Source: a virus. From it: 20,505 nt of DNA. The DNA is taken from IMG/VR virus record IMGVR_UViG_3300017977_000109, positions 1 through 20,505 of that record; one strand, given 5' to 3'. Below are positions 14,609 to 19,804 of the stretch, piece by piece (the stretch's first letter is position 1; each line of letters starts with the position of its first letter). Made by a program: the position numbers and the translations under genes. The notes beneath the pieces are model-generated. The model made no database searches. It saw nothing but the letters and a program-made list of their open reading frames with translations, and was not told the origin of the DNA.

Positions 14609-15367
14609 TTATAGTCTTTTTTCTAACTCTTTAAAGCGCTCAAGCAAGGCACTAGAGTCTTTTTCTAATGTTTGAACTTCAAAATCTAGCTGCTTGTCAA
14701 GCTCACCGCCAAGTAGATATTTTCCAAAACTTCCATCTCGGTTGTGTAGCGCAATCCATCCTGCACCTCTTCGTGTCCAAAACGACAGATGCCCTAATTC
14801 AACAAGATCGATGCCGGATTTGAAGTTATTTCTATAATATTTTTTGAGTACACGTAAGGTACTAGCACTTACGCCCATAGCCCGTGCCAATTCAGGGGTA
14901 GTAATTAAGAATCCGTGATTAATGTCAGCATAGGCCTTAGCATTAGCTCCATTGAATTTAATCAAAAACTCTTGATTGGGGTTGATGGCTCCGTACATTC
15001 TATAAAACGAAATAAGATCACGCTCATCAATTTGATTGTTGTAAAATGAATAGTTACCTGTTTTTCTGATGGAGGGCAAGACCTCTTTGGTTACCCATCT
15101 AGTGAAGCTTCTAGCCTCTGGTTTGCGGGAACTAAAAACCAACTCATAGAGTCCACTTTCACTGACAAAATTCATCTCTCTCTTTTGACCACCTGATGTC
15201 GCTTTAACCGACACCAGGTCTTCGCCGTCCAATTTACTAATTGCATCTCTTGAATTTGCAATATTTAAACATCCGCATACATCCTTGGCATTAAATAACG
15301 GCTCTCCATTATCATCTATTATACTTCTAACCTCTGTTTCATTAAAATTAAATGGAACTATATTCAC
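14609..15367 (-). CDS. BRO-type phage antirepressor
   Basis: The 252-residue protein has an N-terminal BRO-N domain at about residues 1-105, with the typical F-N-A-K-D-V-C-G-C-L-N-I-A-N-S-R-D-A-I, the L-Y-E-L-V-F-S-S-R-K-P-E-A segment and the F-x-R-W-V-T-K-E-V-L-P-S-I-R-K-T-G motif. A second DNA-binding part follows, with T-T-P-E-L-A-R-A-M-G-V-S-A-S-T-L-R near residues 155-171. Such proteins usually bind a phage repressor or DNA and promote induction or gene switching. It starts at a GTG with AAAGGAT 6 bases upstream, just after the 75-residue ORF. It is the last gene of the leftward early block and converges on gpG. Confidence 0.85.
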   Translation of the reverse strand: MNIVPFNFNETEVRSIIDDNGEPLFNAKDVCGCLNIANSRDAISKLDGEDLVSVKATSGGQKREMNFVSESGLYELVFSSRKPEARSFTRWVTKEVLPSIRKTGNYSFYNNQIDERDLISFYRMYGAINPNQEFLIKFNGANAKAYADINHGFLITTPELARAMGVSASTLRVLKKYYRNNFKSGIDLVELGHLSFWTRRGAGWIALHNRDGSFGKYLLGGELDKQLDFEVQTLEKDSSALLERFKELEKRL

Positions 15368-15692: not shown

Positions 15693-15842
15693 TTACTTTT
15701 CTAATCTATTGTCTATATCTTTGGTTACAGCATAAACGACATATTGGTTTAAAGTCATTCCAAGCTTATTGGCAATGTCCTCCATCTTTTTAACCATTTC
15801 TGCATTAAATGTTACTTGCAGTTTTTTACTTTTATCTTCCAT
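15693..15842 (-). CDS. Ribbon-helix-helix DNA-binding protein (49 aa)
   Basis: The reading frame from ATG 15842 to TAA 15693 gives 49 residues. The pattern is that of a small ribbon-helix-helix (Arc/CopG type) protein: a basic start, a strand K-L-Q-V-T-F-N-A, helix A M-V-K-K-M-E-D-I-A-N-K-L-G, the turn M-T, and helix B L-N-Q-Y-V-V-Y-A-V-T-K-D-I. AAGGAAA lies about 9 bases upstream of the ATG. It would act as a dimeric repressor, possibly on its own region or on the tandem repeat at 15657-15676. Confidence 0.75.
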   Translation of the reverse strand: MEDKSKKLQVTFNAEMVKKMEDIANKLGMTLNQYVVYAVTKDIDNRLEK

Positions 15843-15876
15843 TTTTTGTATTTCCTTTTTCAATGTGTTATTTTAT

Positions 15877-16152
15877 CTAAAAGAGCTTTGGCTCACGAAT
15901 ATCTTTGGTGATCTTGTAGATCTGTGAAGATGAAAGATCATATTTTTTCTGCAGCTCTCTCAAGCTGATGCCGTTTTGAAAGTCTTCGATCAGATCATTG
16001 TCACGGCTGACGGTCTTGTAGCTGGGAATGTAGATCTTATCACCGCCATACTCTTTGAGGATATCATTCAAATCCTCGGCTTCTTTAACAAACTCGACAA
16101 ACTGCTTGAAGAGGTCAAGGGTGGTGATCTCGGAGCGGTACTCTTCTGACAT
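15877..16152 (-). CDS. Mor/C family transcription activator
   Basis: The 91-residue protein carries the pattern of Mu Mor and C: G-G-D-K-I-Y-I-P-S at about residues 36-44, R-D-N-D-L-I-E-D-F-Q-N-G at 50-61, then a helix-turn-helix with L-R-E-L-Q-K-K-Y-D-L-S-S-S-Q-I-Y-K-I-T. In Mu, Mor turns on the middle promoter and C turns on the late promoters. Only one homologue is visible here, so it may be the sole late activator. It lies 9 bases after gemA and has AAGGAA before the ATG. Binding targets may be in the divergent late region at 5716-5837. Confidence 0.82.
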   Translation of the reverse strand: MSEEYRSEITTLDLFKQFVEFVKEAEDLNDILKEYGGDKIYIPSYKTVSRDNDLIEDFQNGISLRELQKKYDLSSSQIYKITKDIREPKLF

Positions 16153-16161
16153 GAATATTCC

Positions 16162-16581
16162 TTATTTTTGTTCTTGCATGCGCTTGAGCATGGGGATGAG
16201 CTTCTGCGCTTCTTCAAAACTCAGGTTCTTTACATGTAAGAGCTGCTTCTTGAATTGCCGCTTGATGAACCTGAGCAGTGCGTCATCGCTGACATCATCC
16301 GCATACTGCGCCCACATACTGCGGATGGTGCTCAGCTGTGCCATGGTCGCGTTTTGCTTTTTTGGTTTCTGAATGGGGAGCTCTTTTTGTTGGAAATTGA
16401 AGTAATTCACAAGTATAACAAGCTGATCGATCTCTAACTCTTTGGAACTTGTCACGCCGAAGTGCTCTTGCAGCAGCGCTTCATAGTCATCACGGTTGTG
16501 ACGGAAGTACTCGCTGTAGCGTTTTGAGGTGTGGATCTGTTGGATAAGGCTTTTGTGGTAGAGTTGTTGTCTTGGGGTCAT
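16162..16581 (-). CDS. gemA: GemA-like regulatory protein (Mu gp16, DUF1018)
   Basis: The 139-residue protein matches the gp16/GemA family pattern: M-T-P-R-Q-Q-L-Y-H-K-S-L-I-Q-Q-I-H at the start, Y-R-x-F-x-like Y-F-R-H-N-R-D-D-Y-E-A-L-L-Q-E-H-F-G-V-x-S-S-K-E-L near residues 25-50, and a second half with A-T-M-A-Q-L-S-T-I-R-S-M-W-A-Q-Y. In Mu, GemA affects host gyrase-related expression. It is followed closely by mor/C, the same order as in Mu (gp16 then mor). AAAGGAG lies 7 bases before the ATG. Confidence 0.85.
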   Translation of the reverse strand: MTPRQQLYHKSLIQQIHTSKRYSEYFRHNRDDYEALLQEHFGVTSSKELEIDQLVILVNYFNFQQKELPIQKPKKQNATMAQLSTIRSMWAQYADDVSDDALLRFIKRQFKKQLLHVKNLSFEEAQKLIPMLKRMQEQK

Positions 16582-16617
16582 TACTTTACTCCTTTGATGG
16601 GATAAAAATACACGTTT

Positions 16618-16660
16618 ACAACACCTAAAGCCCTAATATAGGGCAAGTTGTCGGTGTTGT
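16618..16660 (-). repeat. 43-bp dyad repeat, left copy (downstream of ATPase gene)
   Basis: Read on the minus strand it matches the plus-strand copy at 17626-17668 at 39 of 43 positions. It is itself nearly palindromic: outer arms ACAACACC/GGTGTTGT and inner arms GCCCTA/TAGGGC separated by 3 bases. It lies between the ATPase stop and the gemA start. Confidence 0.8.
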
Positions 16661-16681
16661 ATGTGTTGTCTTTCTTTGAGA

Positions 16682-17593
16682 TCATGCACTGAGCCTATAG
16701 ATCTTCTGACGATTTGCACCATCACTGACATTCCAGAACTTACCGACAAAGCTCTCTAGTCGTGCTCTGACCGCTTTATCTGTTTTTTTGTAGCCGATAT
16801 TTTCAAGAAGCTTGCTCTGGTTGATGCCCTCGTTGTGCTTCTCAAGTTCATCTTTGACTTTACATGTAAAGAGTTCATCTTCTTTGGACATACCCGCAAT
16901 TGTTGGGTCAAGCTCCATCAAGGTGAGATCATCAACACGGACACTAAATCCATGATCGGTAATACTGGAGCGCTCTTTCTCGACACTCATTTTGTAATGT
17001 ATAGAACCATTGCTCTTAGCCTGTTGTGATAACAGATACAGGCTGTCAAGGCTTTTGGTAAATTCTCCTGAACCGTCAATGCCTCTTCCGTTTTTTGTGG
17101 TGTGATGGTTGAGTATGATAGTGCCACCCGCTTCACGGATGTTTTTTAAGACGTCCATCATCTCGCGTACCTTAGTATCGTTACTCATGTCGCCATTGAC
17201 AAAGTCTCGTGTGGCATCAAAGAAGAAGACACCATCTTGATAGTTGTTGCCGTGTGCTTTAGCTCCGAGCTTTAATAGCAGGTTATAGGGGCTCTCTGAT
17301 ATCGTTGAGCGATGCAGCATTTTGAAGTTTTTGTGCTTTGCGAAGAGGTGGTTGATGTTACGCTCTGCGATATTACGTCGTGGGTTATCCATATCCATAT
17401 AGAGCAGATCAACATCGTGATGCTCAAGAATATGGTTTGCAACAGCTAGAGAAAACCATGTCTTACCTTGTCCCTCTTTGGCATACCACATCGTCAGCCC
17501 TTGCTTAACAATAAAATCTTTGATCAAATATTCCGTCTTCTCTTGGAGTTTGTCTGGGGTTAAGAACCAATCGTCTTCGATAAATTCAAACAT
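16682..17593 (-). CDS. RepA-like AAA/RecA-fold ATPase (replication helicase type)
   Basis: The 303-residue protein has Walker A A-K-E-G-Q-G-K-T-W at residues 38-46, a Walker B-like G-V-F-F-F-D-A-T-R-D at 121-130, and I-I-L-N-H-H-T-T-K at 159-167, the pattern of RepA/AAA_25 hexameric helicase-like ATPases. The C-terminal 70 residues resemble a winged helix (N-Q-S-K-L-L-E-N-I-G-Y). It probably acts in phage DNA replication. It is not MuB-like. AAAGGAAAAA precedes the ATG. The gene is flanked on both sides by 43-bp inverted repeats, which may regulate it, act as an origin, or mark it as an inserted unit. Confidence 0.8.
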   Translation of the reverse strand: MFEFIEDDWFLTPDKLQEKTEYLIKDFIVKQGLTMWYAKEGQGKTWFSLAVANHILEHHDVDLLYMDMDNPRRNIAERNINHLFAKHKNFKMLHRSTISESPYNLLLKLGAKAHGNNYQDGVFFFDATRDFVNGDMSNDTKVREMMDVLKNIREAGGTIILNHHTTKNGRGIDGSGEFTKSLDSLYLLSQQAKSNGSIHYKMSVEKERSSITDHGFSVRVDDLTLMELDPTIAGMSKEDELFTCKVKDELEKHNEGINQSKLLENIGYKKTDKAVRARLESFVGKFWNVSDGANRQKIYRLSA

Positions 17594-17625
17594 TATTTTT
17601 CCTTTCTAAGAAAACTACTACACTG

Positions 17626-17668
17626 ACAACACCGACAACATGCCCTATACTAGGGCTTTGTGTGTTGT
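17626..17668 (+). repeat. 43-bp dyad repeat, right copy (upstream of ATPase gene)
   Basis: This is the inverted partner of 16618-16660 (39 of 43 positions alike). The inner arms are GCCCTA and TAGGGC with TAC between. It lies between the preceding gene's stop at 17684 and the ATPase start at 17593, so it is in position to act as an operator or mRNA structure for the ATPase gene. Confidence 0.8.
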
Positions 17669-17683
17669 AAAGGTGTTGCAAAC

Positions 17684-18247
17684 TCATAGCTTCTCCAACT
17701 TAAGCACGTCGCTCTTACCCAACAACTTCTGCTGCTTCTCAAGAATGGCTTCACTGATAATCTGATCGATACGCTCTATCACGACGCCCGAGTTGGCTTC
17801 GCGTTTGATGCCGTGCAGCCAGGCACCACCGCCGAGCTTTTCAAGAACATAGACCTCCTGTCTTGAGAGTGTCTCTCCGTCGAACTTCGTGACGCGGTAG
17901 TTCACCTTTGCAAAAAACTCGCTGAGCTTGCTCTCTTTGACATTCATGTCTGCATATTCGCTCAGTGAGGTGTGAATCGTATAGAACTTGTCATAGATCT
18001 GCTTGGCAAGTGTCCACGTTCCCTCAAGGAGCGTGGCAGTATGTGAGTCCTTGAAGCGCTTGGCTACCTTTGCCACACGATCAAGCGGCTTGAGAAACTG
18101 ATGCTCATCACCGTGGAGGGCATTGAAAAACGGCTGATACTGCTCCGGAGGAATCTCCGCGATGATCTCTTCAACCATAGAGAGTGTGAACAGATCCCCC
18201 TCGATGCCGAGGGAACGGACAATGTTGTCACGAAGCTGGGTGAGCAT
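17684..18247 (-). CDS. Phage early protein, unknown (187 aa)
   Basis: The product is mostly helical and soluble, with I-I-A-E-I-P-P-E-Q-Y-Q-P-F-F-N-A-L near residues 28-44, a conserved-looking G-G-G-A-W-L-H-G-I-K-R near 139-149 and a Lys/Leu-rich end. I recognise no family. GGAGG lies 5 bases before the ATG and the gene overlaps the upstream one by 20 bases. Its place between a Phg_2220_C-like gene and a RepA-like ATPase suggests a replication or DNA-handling role, for example a helicase accessory factor, but no motif proves it. Confidence 0.6.
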   Translation of the reverse strand: MLTQLRDNIVRSLGIEGDLFTLSMVEEIIAEIPPEQYQPFFNALHGDEHQFLKPLDRVAKVAKRFKDSHTATLLEGTWTLAKQIYDKFYTIHTSLSEYADMNVKESKLSEFFAKVNYRVTKFDGETLSRQEVYVLEKLGGGAWLHGIKREANSGVVIERIDQIISEAILEKQQKLLGKSDVLKLEKL

Positions 18248-18578
18248 GAAAACCTCCTTGTAGCATCATATCGCGCACCTCGGTCGCGCTCTTGCCTGTG
18301 GCCTGCATAATCATATTGAGCTTTGCACCATCATCAAGCGGTTGGTTCAGGTAGCTCTCAAACTTGGTGCCGTAGAGTGTCTCGGGGCGCAGGTACTTCG
18401 CAAACGATGTGCCTTTCCAGTCTGCCGTTTTGATGATATGCACCATTTTGAAGTCATCAACTCCAAATCCCTCACCCATTCGCGCACGGATCAGGCTCTG
18501 TGTCTTTTTCGACCGTGCTCGGTAATTTGATCCACTCACCTCATTTAGGTGAGTTACAATCTGCTCTGTCTCGTTCAT
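18228..18578 (-). CDS. Phage replication-associated protein (Phg_2220_C-type domain)
   Basis: The 116-residue product fits the conserved phage C-terminal domain Phg_2220_C: an I-V-T-H-L-N-E-V-S-G-S-N-Y-R start, S-K-K-T-Q-S-L-I-R-A-R at about residues 23-33, G-F-G-V-D-D-F-K-M-V-H near 37-47, and the signature K-Y-L-R-P-E-T-L-Y-G-T-K-F-E-S-Y-L-N at about 61-78. This domain normally sits at the end of longer helix-turn-helix or DnaD-like phage replication proteins; here it stands almost alone with a 35-residue tail. It is the first gene after an intergenic hairpin. Confidence 0.75.
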   Translation of the reverse strand: MNETEQIVTHLNEVSGSNYRARSKKTQSLIRARMGEGFGVDDFKMVHIIKTADWKGTSFAKYLRPETLYGTKFESYLNQPLDDGAKLNMIMQATGKSATEVRDMMLQGGFHAHPAS

Positions 18579-18651: not shown

Positions 18652-19128
18652 CTACTTATCCCCTAGTAGATCATGCAGTGAAGCCTCAGAGAGTGTGATA
18701 TGTGATCGTCCTTTGGCTTCACCTATCGCATAGGCTTCTTTGACAAGTGCTGTGACACGTTCAAGCGTAAAATATTGAGGTTCTCTCTCTACCTGCGTCT
18801 CCTGTGTGCATTGCGCTTCATTCGGCGTCGGTTTGCTCTCTTCATGTTTCTCCTCTTCTTCGGGTGCTCCCAGCGGGGAACACGGCTGCTGATATTCAGG
18901 CTTTTGCTTCTCTGGCTTTTCATGAGGAGCTGCTTTGCTCTTTGGCGGGCGTCCGCGTCTCTTCTTTTCAGGCTTGTCAATGCTCATCAGTGATCTCATG
19001 GCAGAGATGTTGTTGTCGTTGAGTTTTCCGCTCTTGACGTCGATACGTTTGCGCAGCGTAAGAAGCTCTTCTTCACTGACACCCAAAATATCCATAGACT
19101 CCAGGTCGCTATACTCATGCTTGCTCAT
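18652..19128 (-). CDS. AT-hook protein, unknown
   Basis: The 158-residue protein has three parts: a helical start (about 1-60), a basic segment E-K-K-R-R-G-R-P-P-K-S-K at about residues 58-69 with the G-R-P core of an AT-hook, then a long Pro/Glu/Lys-rich low-complexity linker to about 120 and a short helical end (T-L-E-R-V-T-A-L-V-K-E-A-Y-A-I-G-E-A-K-G). An AT-hook binds the minor groove of AT-rich DNA, so this may be an early DNA-binding or nucleoid-like factor. I chose the ATG at 19128 because AGGAG lies 8 bases upstream; an in-frame ATG at 19170 would lie deeper in the upstream gene. It overlaps that gene by 14 bases. Confidence 0.68.
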   Translation of the reverse strand: MSKHEYSDLESMDILGVSEEELLTLRKRIDVKSGKLNDNNISAMRSLMSIDKPEKKRRGRPPKSKAAPHEKPEKQKPEYQQPCSPLGAPEEEEKHEESKPTPNEAQCTQETQVEREPQYFTLERVTALVKEAYAIGEAKGRSHITLSEASLHDLLGDK

Positions 19129-19804
19129 CGTCGGTCTCCTTTCGTGCTTCACGTGTCGTGTTGATATCACGTTCTGTTATCGGTAGTGCCGCGATATCAA
19201 GCGCGATGTTCTCAAACTTCCCGTCAATGGCGCTACCCTCTCTCTGCTTGAAACGGATATAGCTTTTCGTTCCGGCGATCTCTGTGGCTTCGTCGATGAT
19301 CTGCATGGCTTCAATCCACTTTTTATGTTTGATGGGATAGCTCTTGAGCTTGAAGATCTCTTTGGCATCCACCTTGCCGTTCTTGACATCAAAAGCTCTC
19401 ATAATCAGTGTCTGAATCTCAGGATCGGCATGTTCTGTTTTTTCGGTCAGGTACTCGTCGATCTTCTCTTTGGCCAGACTCAGTTTTGAATCAAACTGAA
19501 TCAGCTTTGCGACCTGGATGGAAACCTCCATAGTCCCGTCAAAACTTTTAAGTGTGACCGAACCCTGTCTGCTTCGCTCCATGCGGTCCATGCCGTACTC
19601 TTGGCGCAGCAGGTCAATGAAGTCATAGCAGTCGGCATAAGCATTTACCTTAAACTCCGTGAGAACATCACGCATCTGTTTTGTTTTATCCACAAGGTTC
19701 TCAACAAGCCCATCTTCTAGCTGCTTATCTGCTGTGATCATTCCTTTGGGAATGTAGTTGCCGGTCTTGTCGCGCCAGCGTCCGTTGTCATCTAGTGTTG
19801 GCAT
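19115..19804 (-). CDS. DUF3164 family phage protein
   Basis: The 229-residue protein matches the DUF3164 pattern of Mu-like phages: D-x-x-G-R-W-R-D-K-T-G-N-Y-I-P near the start, F-K-V-N-A-Y-A-D-C-Y-D-F-I-D-L-L near residues 50-65, V-T-L-K-S-F-D-G-T-M-E-V near 83-94, Q-T-L-I-M-R-A-F at 130-137, and a late K-S-Y-I-R-F-K-Q-R-E-G. The role is not known; the gene is regularly found in the early region near transposition genes. AGAAAGGAAAAAA precedes the ATG. It is preceded by a structured 132-base leader. Confidence 0.82.
   Translation of the reverse strand: MPTLDDNGRWRDKTGNYIPKGMITADKQLEDGLVENLVDKTKQMRDVLTEFKVNAYADCYDFIDLLRQEYGMDRMERSRQGSVTLKSFDGTMEVSIQVAKLIQFDSKLSLAKEKIDEYLTEKTEHADPEIQTLIMRAFDVKNGKVDAKEIFKLKSYPIKHKKWIEAMQIIDEATEIAGTKSYIRFKQREGSAIDGKFENIALDIAALPITERDINTTREARKETDDEQA

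Follow-up and report, generated by a model that had tools for sequence, protein, structure and literature searches.

The window, by which we mean the whole 20,505-nucleotide virus fragment analysed here (IMG/VR record IMGVR_UViG_3300017977_000109), carries a gene for a 303-residue ATPase (16682..17593, minus strand) that is flanked by two inverted copies of a repeat. The downstream copy is adjoined by the GemA gene (16162..16581, minus strand; PF06252, 1.8e-16), followed by a gene for a Mor/C-type late activator (15877..16152, minus strand; PF08765, 1.5e-10), and a DUF3164 gene lies at 19115..19804 (minus strand; PF11363, 9e-63). GemA, Mor and DUF3164, together with the relatives, in which MuA and MuB are both present, mark the window as an early region of Mu-like type; MuA and MuB themselves lie outside this fragment. 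An early region of MuA, MuB, Gam/DUF3164, GemA and Mor is shared with Mu and with Campylobacter prophages of the CJIE1/CAMu type; Mu itself is not known to carry an ATPase or an iteron array of this kind. In the Mu-like prophages of Campylobacterota the ATPase gene keeps a constant position, with MuA/MuB on one side and the late genes on the other, in most cases immediately before GemA. Directly upstream of the ATPase gene of the window, a Phg_2220_C protein of the replication-initiation type and a 187-aa protein are encoded (17684-18578), both absent from the other phages compared; the Phg_2220_C region was the sole match when phage records were searched for DNA similarity with the window. 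A BRO-N antirepressor-like protein is encoded between Mor and the late genes (14609-15367), and a single small RHH frame was found in the window, at about 15700-15845. Among the neighbouring genes, one DciA-like match of 6e-4, below the Pfam cut-off, was detected, others being weaker or none, and we gave it no weight as support; a neighbour gene family with a weak DciA-like match of this kind, also below the cut-off, is present at nine loci (L003:4991-5434).

The 43-bp copies (16618-16660, plus strand; 17626-17668, minus strand) are identical at 39 of 43 positions in opposite orientation, as the original prediction had reported from the sequence, and the inverted similarity is longer than was then stated, reaching 72 nt at 82% identity (16610-16681 against 17605-17676). 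The second-longest inverted pair within the 20.5-kb window measures 31 nt at 71%, and the chance expectation for a 39/43 inverted match within 20.5 kb is about 4e-11. The nested dyad ascribed to each copy is present, and in DNA folding both strands of both copies beat nearly all shuffles (z -3.3 to -4.3). The four mismatches had been placed mostly outside the dyad arms; this holds for three, located in loops, but the fourth falls on the last base of an outer arm. An Rfam search of the window returned zero RNA-family matches.

Each copy in the window consists of three direct iterons in tandem, at a constant 9-bp period, next to a distinct core; an inverted iteron lies beyond the core. The downstream array, a 72-bp repeat between the ATPase stop and GemA (16610..16681, plus strand), was delimited from the sequence and from the architecture in relatives. 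It contains three iterons, AAGTTGTCG GTGTTGTAT GTGTTGTCT, recognized by period-9 detection (16645..16671, plus strand), the core palindrome GCCCTA-ATA-TAGGGC (16630..16644) and, on the far side of the core, the inverted iteron (16618..16624, minus strand), which reads ACAACAC on the plus strand and GTGTTGT on the minus strand. The upstream array (17605..17676, minus strand) lies directly before the ATPase start and is inverted with respect to the downstream array. Its iterons, found by the same period detection, are ATGTTGTCG GTGTTGTCA GTGTAGTAG in minus-strand reading (17615..17641, minus strand), its core palindrome is GCCCTA-GTA-TAGGGC (17642..17656), and its inverted iteron (17662..17668, plus strand) reads GTGTTGT on the plus strand and ACAACAC on the minus strand.

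The ATPase is predicted to combine a motor of the RecA/DnaB/RepA type, spanning aa 1 to about 230, and a winged helix at the C-terminus (about 237-301), as judged from Pfam (AAA_25, 1.6e-12), PHROG (phrog_6357, 1.6e-67) and an AlphaFold2 model (pLDDT 91.5). The modelled motor domain has a DnaB/RepA-like topology, and in VIA alignments it matched RadA (Z 18.5), DnaB (Z 18.0) and RSF1010 RepA (1g8y; Z 16.9, 3.6 A over 202 residues). The Walker A motif GKT is invariant in six sequences and K44 in 31. When modelled alone, the C-terminal domain again gave a winged helix, with VIA Z up to 8.8 against winged helices of the MarR and Z-alpha types; its predicted recognition helix (aa 273-281) is encoded at 16748..16774 on the minus strand. 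The likeness to RepA of the IncQ plasmid RSF1010, with a profile match of E 0.002, lies in the RecA-fold hexameric helicase core. In RSF1010, oriV carries iterons and two inverted hairpin sites; the iterons are served by a separate initiator, RepC, and the ssi sites by the primase RepB'. In contrast, the predicted helicase of the window itself bears the winged helix, and neither a gene for RepC nor one for RepB' was seen. A likeness to DnaB-type phage replicative helicases is provided by the distant relative L067, in which a DnaB N-terminal domain (3.3e-21) is fused to the AAA_25 core and an array of period 9, with the core motif of the other arrays, lies near the 3' end of the gene; the window protein differs from this type in lacking the DnaB N-terminal domain. 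The L067 gene belongs to a prophage (L067:8060-9724), and two TCCGATAAG iteron blocks are placed around a TAATATAGGGCTTTA core in its 3' end.

Relatives of the ATPase were collected as five close homologues (48-62% identical) from IMG/VR and GTDB contigs and as more distant homologues from annotated phage and plasmid records. The ATPase profile also matched in 69 of 397 Campylobacterota genomes, the weaker matches being distant relatives. In most of about 35 relatives an array adjoins the ATPase gene, usually directly downstream, and an upstream copy is present as well in the window, L003 and L004-L007. Typical arrays in these relatives have three direct iterons and a CCTA or TAGG core, across which lie between one and three iterons in inverted orientation; one-sided arrays were found in L008, L044 and L061. 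In a scan of the ATPase-gene flanks of 44 homologues for periods 4-15, in which each flank was compared with the maximum of its own shuffles, 18 flanks exceeded that maximum, 16 of them with period 9. CCTA/TAGG was present in 19 of 26 related-array cores, which were extracted by hand, against a shuffle mean of 3.0. The dyad is merely the commonest layout of an iteron array of 9-bp period, which is the more general feature.

The letters of the iterons vary by phage (GTGTTGT, GTGTTTC, GTGTATA, GGTTGTA, GTGGTTA). A wider search for the 43-bp unit, which the original prediction had called for, found only these two copies within the 20.5-kb record and no exact match in IMG/VR, because the letters change between phages; conservation is one of architecture. 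Lack of conservation in close relatives, which had been named in advance as counting against the repeats, was thus a misleading measure. Scans for the GTGTTGT dyad in viral contigs and the 397 Campylobacterota genomes gave none, the pattern being too strict, and a scan for the GTAACAC dyad gave one match, on an unrelated phage contig. There, the dyad repeats lie inside an initiator-like gene beside a dnaB gene (L077:210-275), in an arrangement like that of the lambda origin; this is a suggestive hint of origins, and we left it out of the evidence.

Within one phage, the arrays nearly always share the iteron unit, and this includes unlinked arrays inside MuA or after MuB. GTGTTTC is found on both sides of the ATPase gene in L003, where the two cores have diverged and the iterons are unchanged, and GTGTTGT on both sides in L005; L006 and L007 have GTGTATA/GTGTCGC upstream and about 360 bp downstream of the gene. 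An array copy lies inside MuA near codon 90 in L008 and L046, a second array directly after MuB in L051, L052 and L075, and in L056 one array is inside MuA and another between MuA and MuB. Arrays internal to MuA occupy a variable linker whose protein sequence is otherwise unconserved; L008, L046 and L102 have almost the same array DNA, and the sequence that precedes it differs in L102. In L008, L044, L046 and L051, arrays overlap the 3' end of the ATPase frame.

Two exceptions to unit sharing were observed. In L054 (L054:9475-9700), and likewise in L064 (L064:10834-11000), two arrays in tandem differ in unit, TCGTAGCAG against TTGTAACGG, and agree in core type, and L042 has the second (TTGTAACGG) kind only; such two-unit arrays are possible intermediates in a change of iteron specificity. 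L007 has an extra dyad array (L007:7351-7423) with the foreign-looking unit ACCACAC/GTGTGGT, as in phages of the L049/L053 type, beside its own GTGTATA arrays. GTGTGGT repeats were likewise seen beside the GTGATGC array of L043. In L064, the ATPase gene is interrupted by about 2.6 kb of inserted DNA with two ORFs, 512 and 248 aa long (L064:7320-10800; G010:C1:79319-82789). Long A+T-rich palindromes, TTTAAGCCC...GGGTTTAA, not of the 9-bp iteron kind, are located from a few hundred to several thousand bases upstream of the ATPase gene in L063, L051, L052 and L075.

The original prediction had also proposed asking whether related phages lack the gene and the repeats together. Near-perfect period-9 triplets were detected in 12 of 28 ATPase-bearing early regions versus one of 18 from Mu-like phages of that phylum that have no intact ATPase gene in the vicinity, other periods giving 0-2. 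The sole ATPase-less region with a triplet is L102, which retains its MuA-internal array (L102:5970-6020) and in which no ATPase gene was found. No recognizable array was found in the ATPase-bearing L009, L010, L048, L050, L059, L060 and L063; in these phages the array is either too A+T-rich or degenerate to detect, or dispensable.

The protein that reads the iterons was sought by Mantel tests on iteron units extracted automatically by an algorithm from 20-21 phages, which are related and non-independent. Iteron distance was correlated with the C-terminal domain of the ATPase (r=0.37, p=0.0004), and more weakly with MuA (0.22), GemA (0.18), the motor domain (0.17), Mor (0.12) and MuB (0.05). 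In partial tests, the C-terminal domain given the core retained 0.34 (p=0.0003; 0.22, p=0.04, at the strictest array threshold), while the core given the C-terminal domain gave 0.00; likewise, the C-terminal domain given MuA gave 0.45 and MuA given the C-terminal domain -0.07. With a 15-residue window sliding along the ATPase, the peak was at aa 269-287 (r=0.44; p=0.002 by the permutation max-statistic over all windows), which coincides with the predicted recognition helix. The core domains of L107 and L108 are 71-73% identical to those of L053 and L103, yet their iteron is GTGTTTC instead of GTGGTTA; their recognition helix reads ADKQAR, as does that of L003, which has GTGTTTC iterons and only 28% core identity. 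Linkage of the 3' end of the ATPase gene to the array could add to the correlation; GemA, on the other side of the array, correlates more weakly. There is strong support, by correlation among related phages, for recognition of the cognate arrays by the winged helix of the ATPase, the domain matching its own iterons. An RHH protein with Omega-like heptads, also considered as the iteron reader, was made unnecessary by the correlation at the level of the helix. Computation on the genomes compared here established the arrays, their 9-bp period, the sharing of units within a phage, the association with the ATPase gene and the correlated variation between iteron and recognition helix.

Such correlation is compatible with any cognate binding, including that of operators by which the ATPase would repress or tune itself and GemA, with no origin function. 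Both arrays of the window precede genes (ATPase and GemA), and a promoter-like match overlaps the upstream array, but this match runs antisense to the gene and does not exceed the shuffle expectation. In most relatives the array is instead downstream of the ATPase gene, and several arrays lie within coding sequence, in MuA (L008, L046, L102 and L056) or at the 3' end of the ATPase frame as above. The paired operator first suggested for the two repeats is thus unlikely as a general account, and autoregulation through the upstream copy is possible.

The arrays could also be ATPase sites for transposition, where the ATPase would, for example, help MuA/MuB or mediate the transpososome-to-replisome handover at the ends of Mu. 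All of these phages are Mu-like, and some have arrays in or beside MuA and MuB; nevertheless, the iterons follow neither MuA, once the C-terminal domain is given, nor MuB. Because 18 Mu-like phages of the phylum have MuA, MuB and GemA without the ATPase, the latter is not needed for transposition generally, and we consider a transposition role a rather improbable one.

Hairpin-forming sites for single-strand initiation, recognized as single strands by a primase like ssiA/ssiB of RSF1010, would account for two inverted copies that fold well (the array of L003 does so too, z -4.2) and for the resemblance of the ATPase to RSF1010 RepA. The dyads are not universal, however: since the three one-sided arrays exist and the array of L046 has no folding advantage over shuffles (z +0.78), the hairpin is a non-essential feature. 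In addition, no primase gene was found, and the tandem 9-bp phase and the winged-helix correlation suit duplex iterons better, making single-strand sites very unlikely. The repeats had also been suggested to be the ends of a small mobile element around the ATPase gene, a reading that is largely refuted. In the window, in L003 and in L005 a single gene does lie between them, and related phages without the gene are mostly without arrays, but the majority of relatives have either one array, at the gene, or another at a distance of kilobases and at varied places, no target duplication was seen beside the 72-bp ends (16610 and 17676), and the gene keeps its position in the early region.

We conclude that the two copies are very probably cognate iteron arrays of the encoded ATPase and, as the best inference, a probable replication origin or helicase-loading site, a role to which we give a probability of about 0.6. 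Among the three roles proposed at first for the repeats, that of an ATPase-bound origin has the most support, as the iteron letters track the predicted winged helix, most sharply at the recognition helix, and the architecture recurs beside the gene in the majority of the relatives. The nearest functional parallels are Rep of SaPI and Cch2 of SCCmec, in which the C-terminal domain of the initiator helicase binds iterons, only three in the Cch2 site, directly downstream of the helicase gene (PMC7581432). The window resembles these in combining a mobile-element helicase gene with short direct iterons in an array directly downstream. The helicases of SaPI and SCC belong to the DUF927 and D5/Primase_Cterm families (PMC7581432), whereas the window motor is predicted to have the RecA fold (AAA_25, RepA/DnaB-like). 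Furthermore, the present arrays, as putative binding and replication sites, belong to transposable phages of the Mu-like kind, where one phage often has two or more of them. The likeness is one of working mode, and because the motor fold differs we do not claim membership in the SaPI Rep system.

For the origin or helicase-loading site, we infer physical binding, ring assembly, unwinding and replication by the ATPase. The C-terminal winged helix would read the 9-bp iterons, so that several protomers would line up side by side along the array and a RecA-fold ring would form beside or around the adjacent core. The motor would then be placed on the A+T-containing CCTA/TAGG core and would probably open it, and the opened strands may serve for replisome loading and for start or restart of replication inside the phage. 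The same phage lineage also carries MuA and MuB for replicative transposition.

Mu replicates by replicative transposition, and phages of its type are the standard example of a genome that is copied by transposing and has no origin of its own. We know of no need for an internal origin in such phages, and this counts against the origin reading, as do the ATPase-bearing phages with no recognizable array, the negative result for a primase gene and the weakness of the DciA-like matches. In a literature search with subscription papers mostly beyond its scope, we found no paper joining Mu-like Campylobacter phages with iterons and no description of an origin with a replicative helicase in Mu-like phages. 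The chances appear evenly balanced that this Mu-like lineage of Campylobacterota replicates at least partly from a dedicated iteron origin fired by its own self-recognizing RecA-fold initiator helicase, the specificity of which diversifies by paired changes of iteron and helix. If this is true, Mu-like phages would own a second system, for origin-based replisome loading or for site-specific restart. RecA-fold motor and iteron reader would be united in one initiator helicase, while other systems split these or use other motor folds, and the paired divergence of iteron and helix would provide more than 10 predicted orthogonal protein-DNA pairs.
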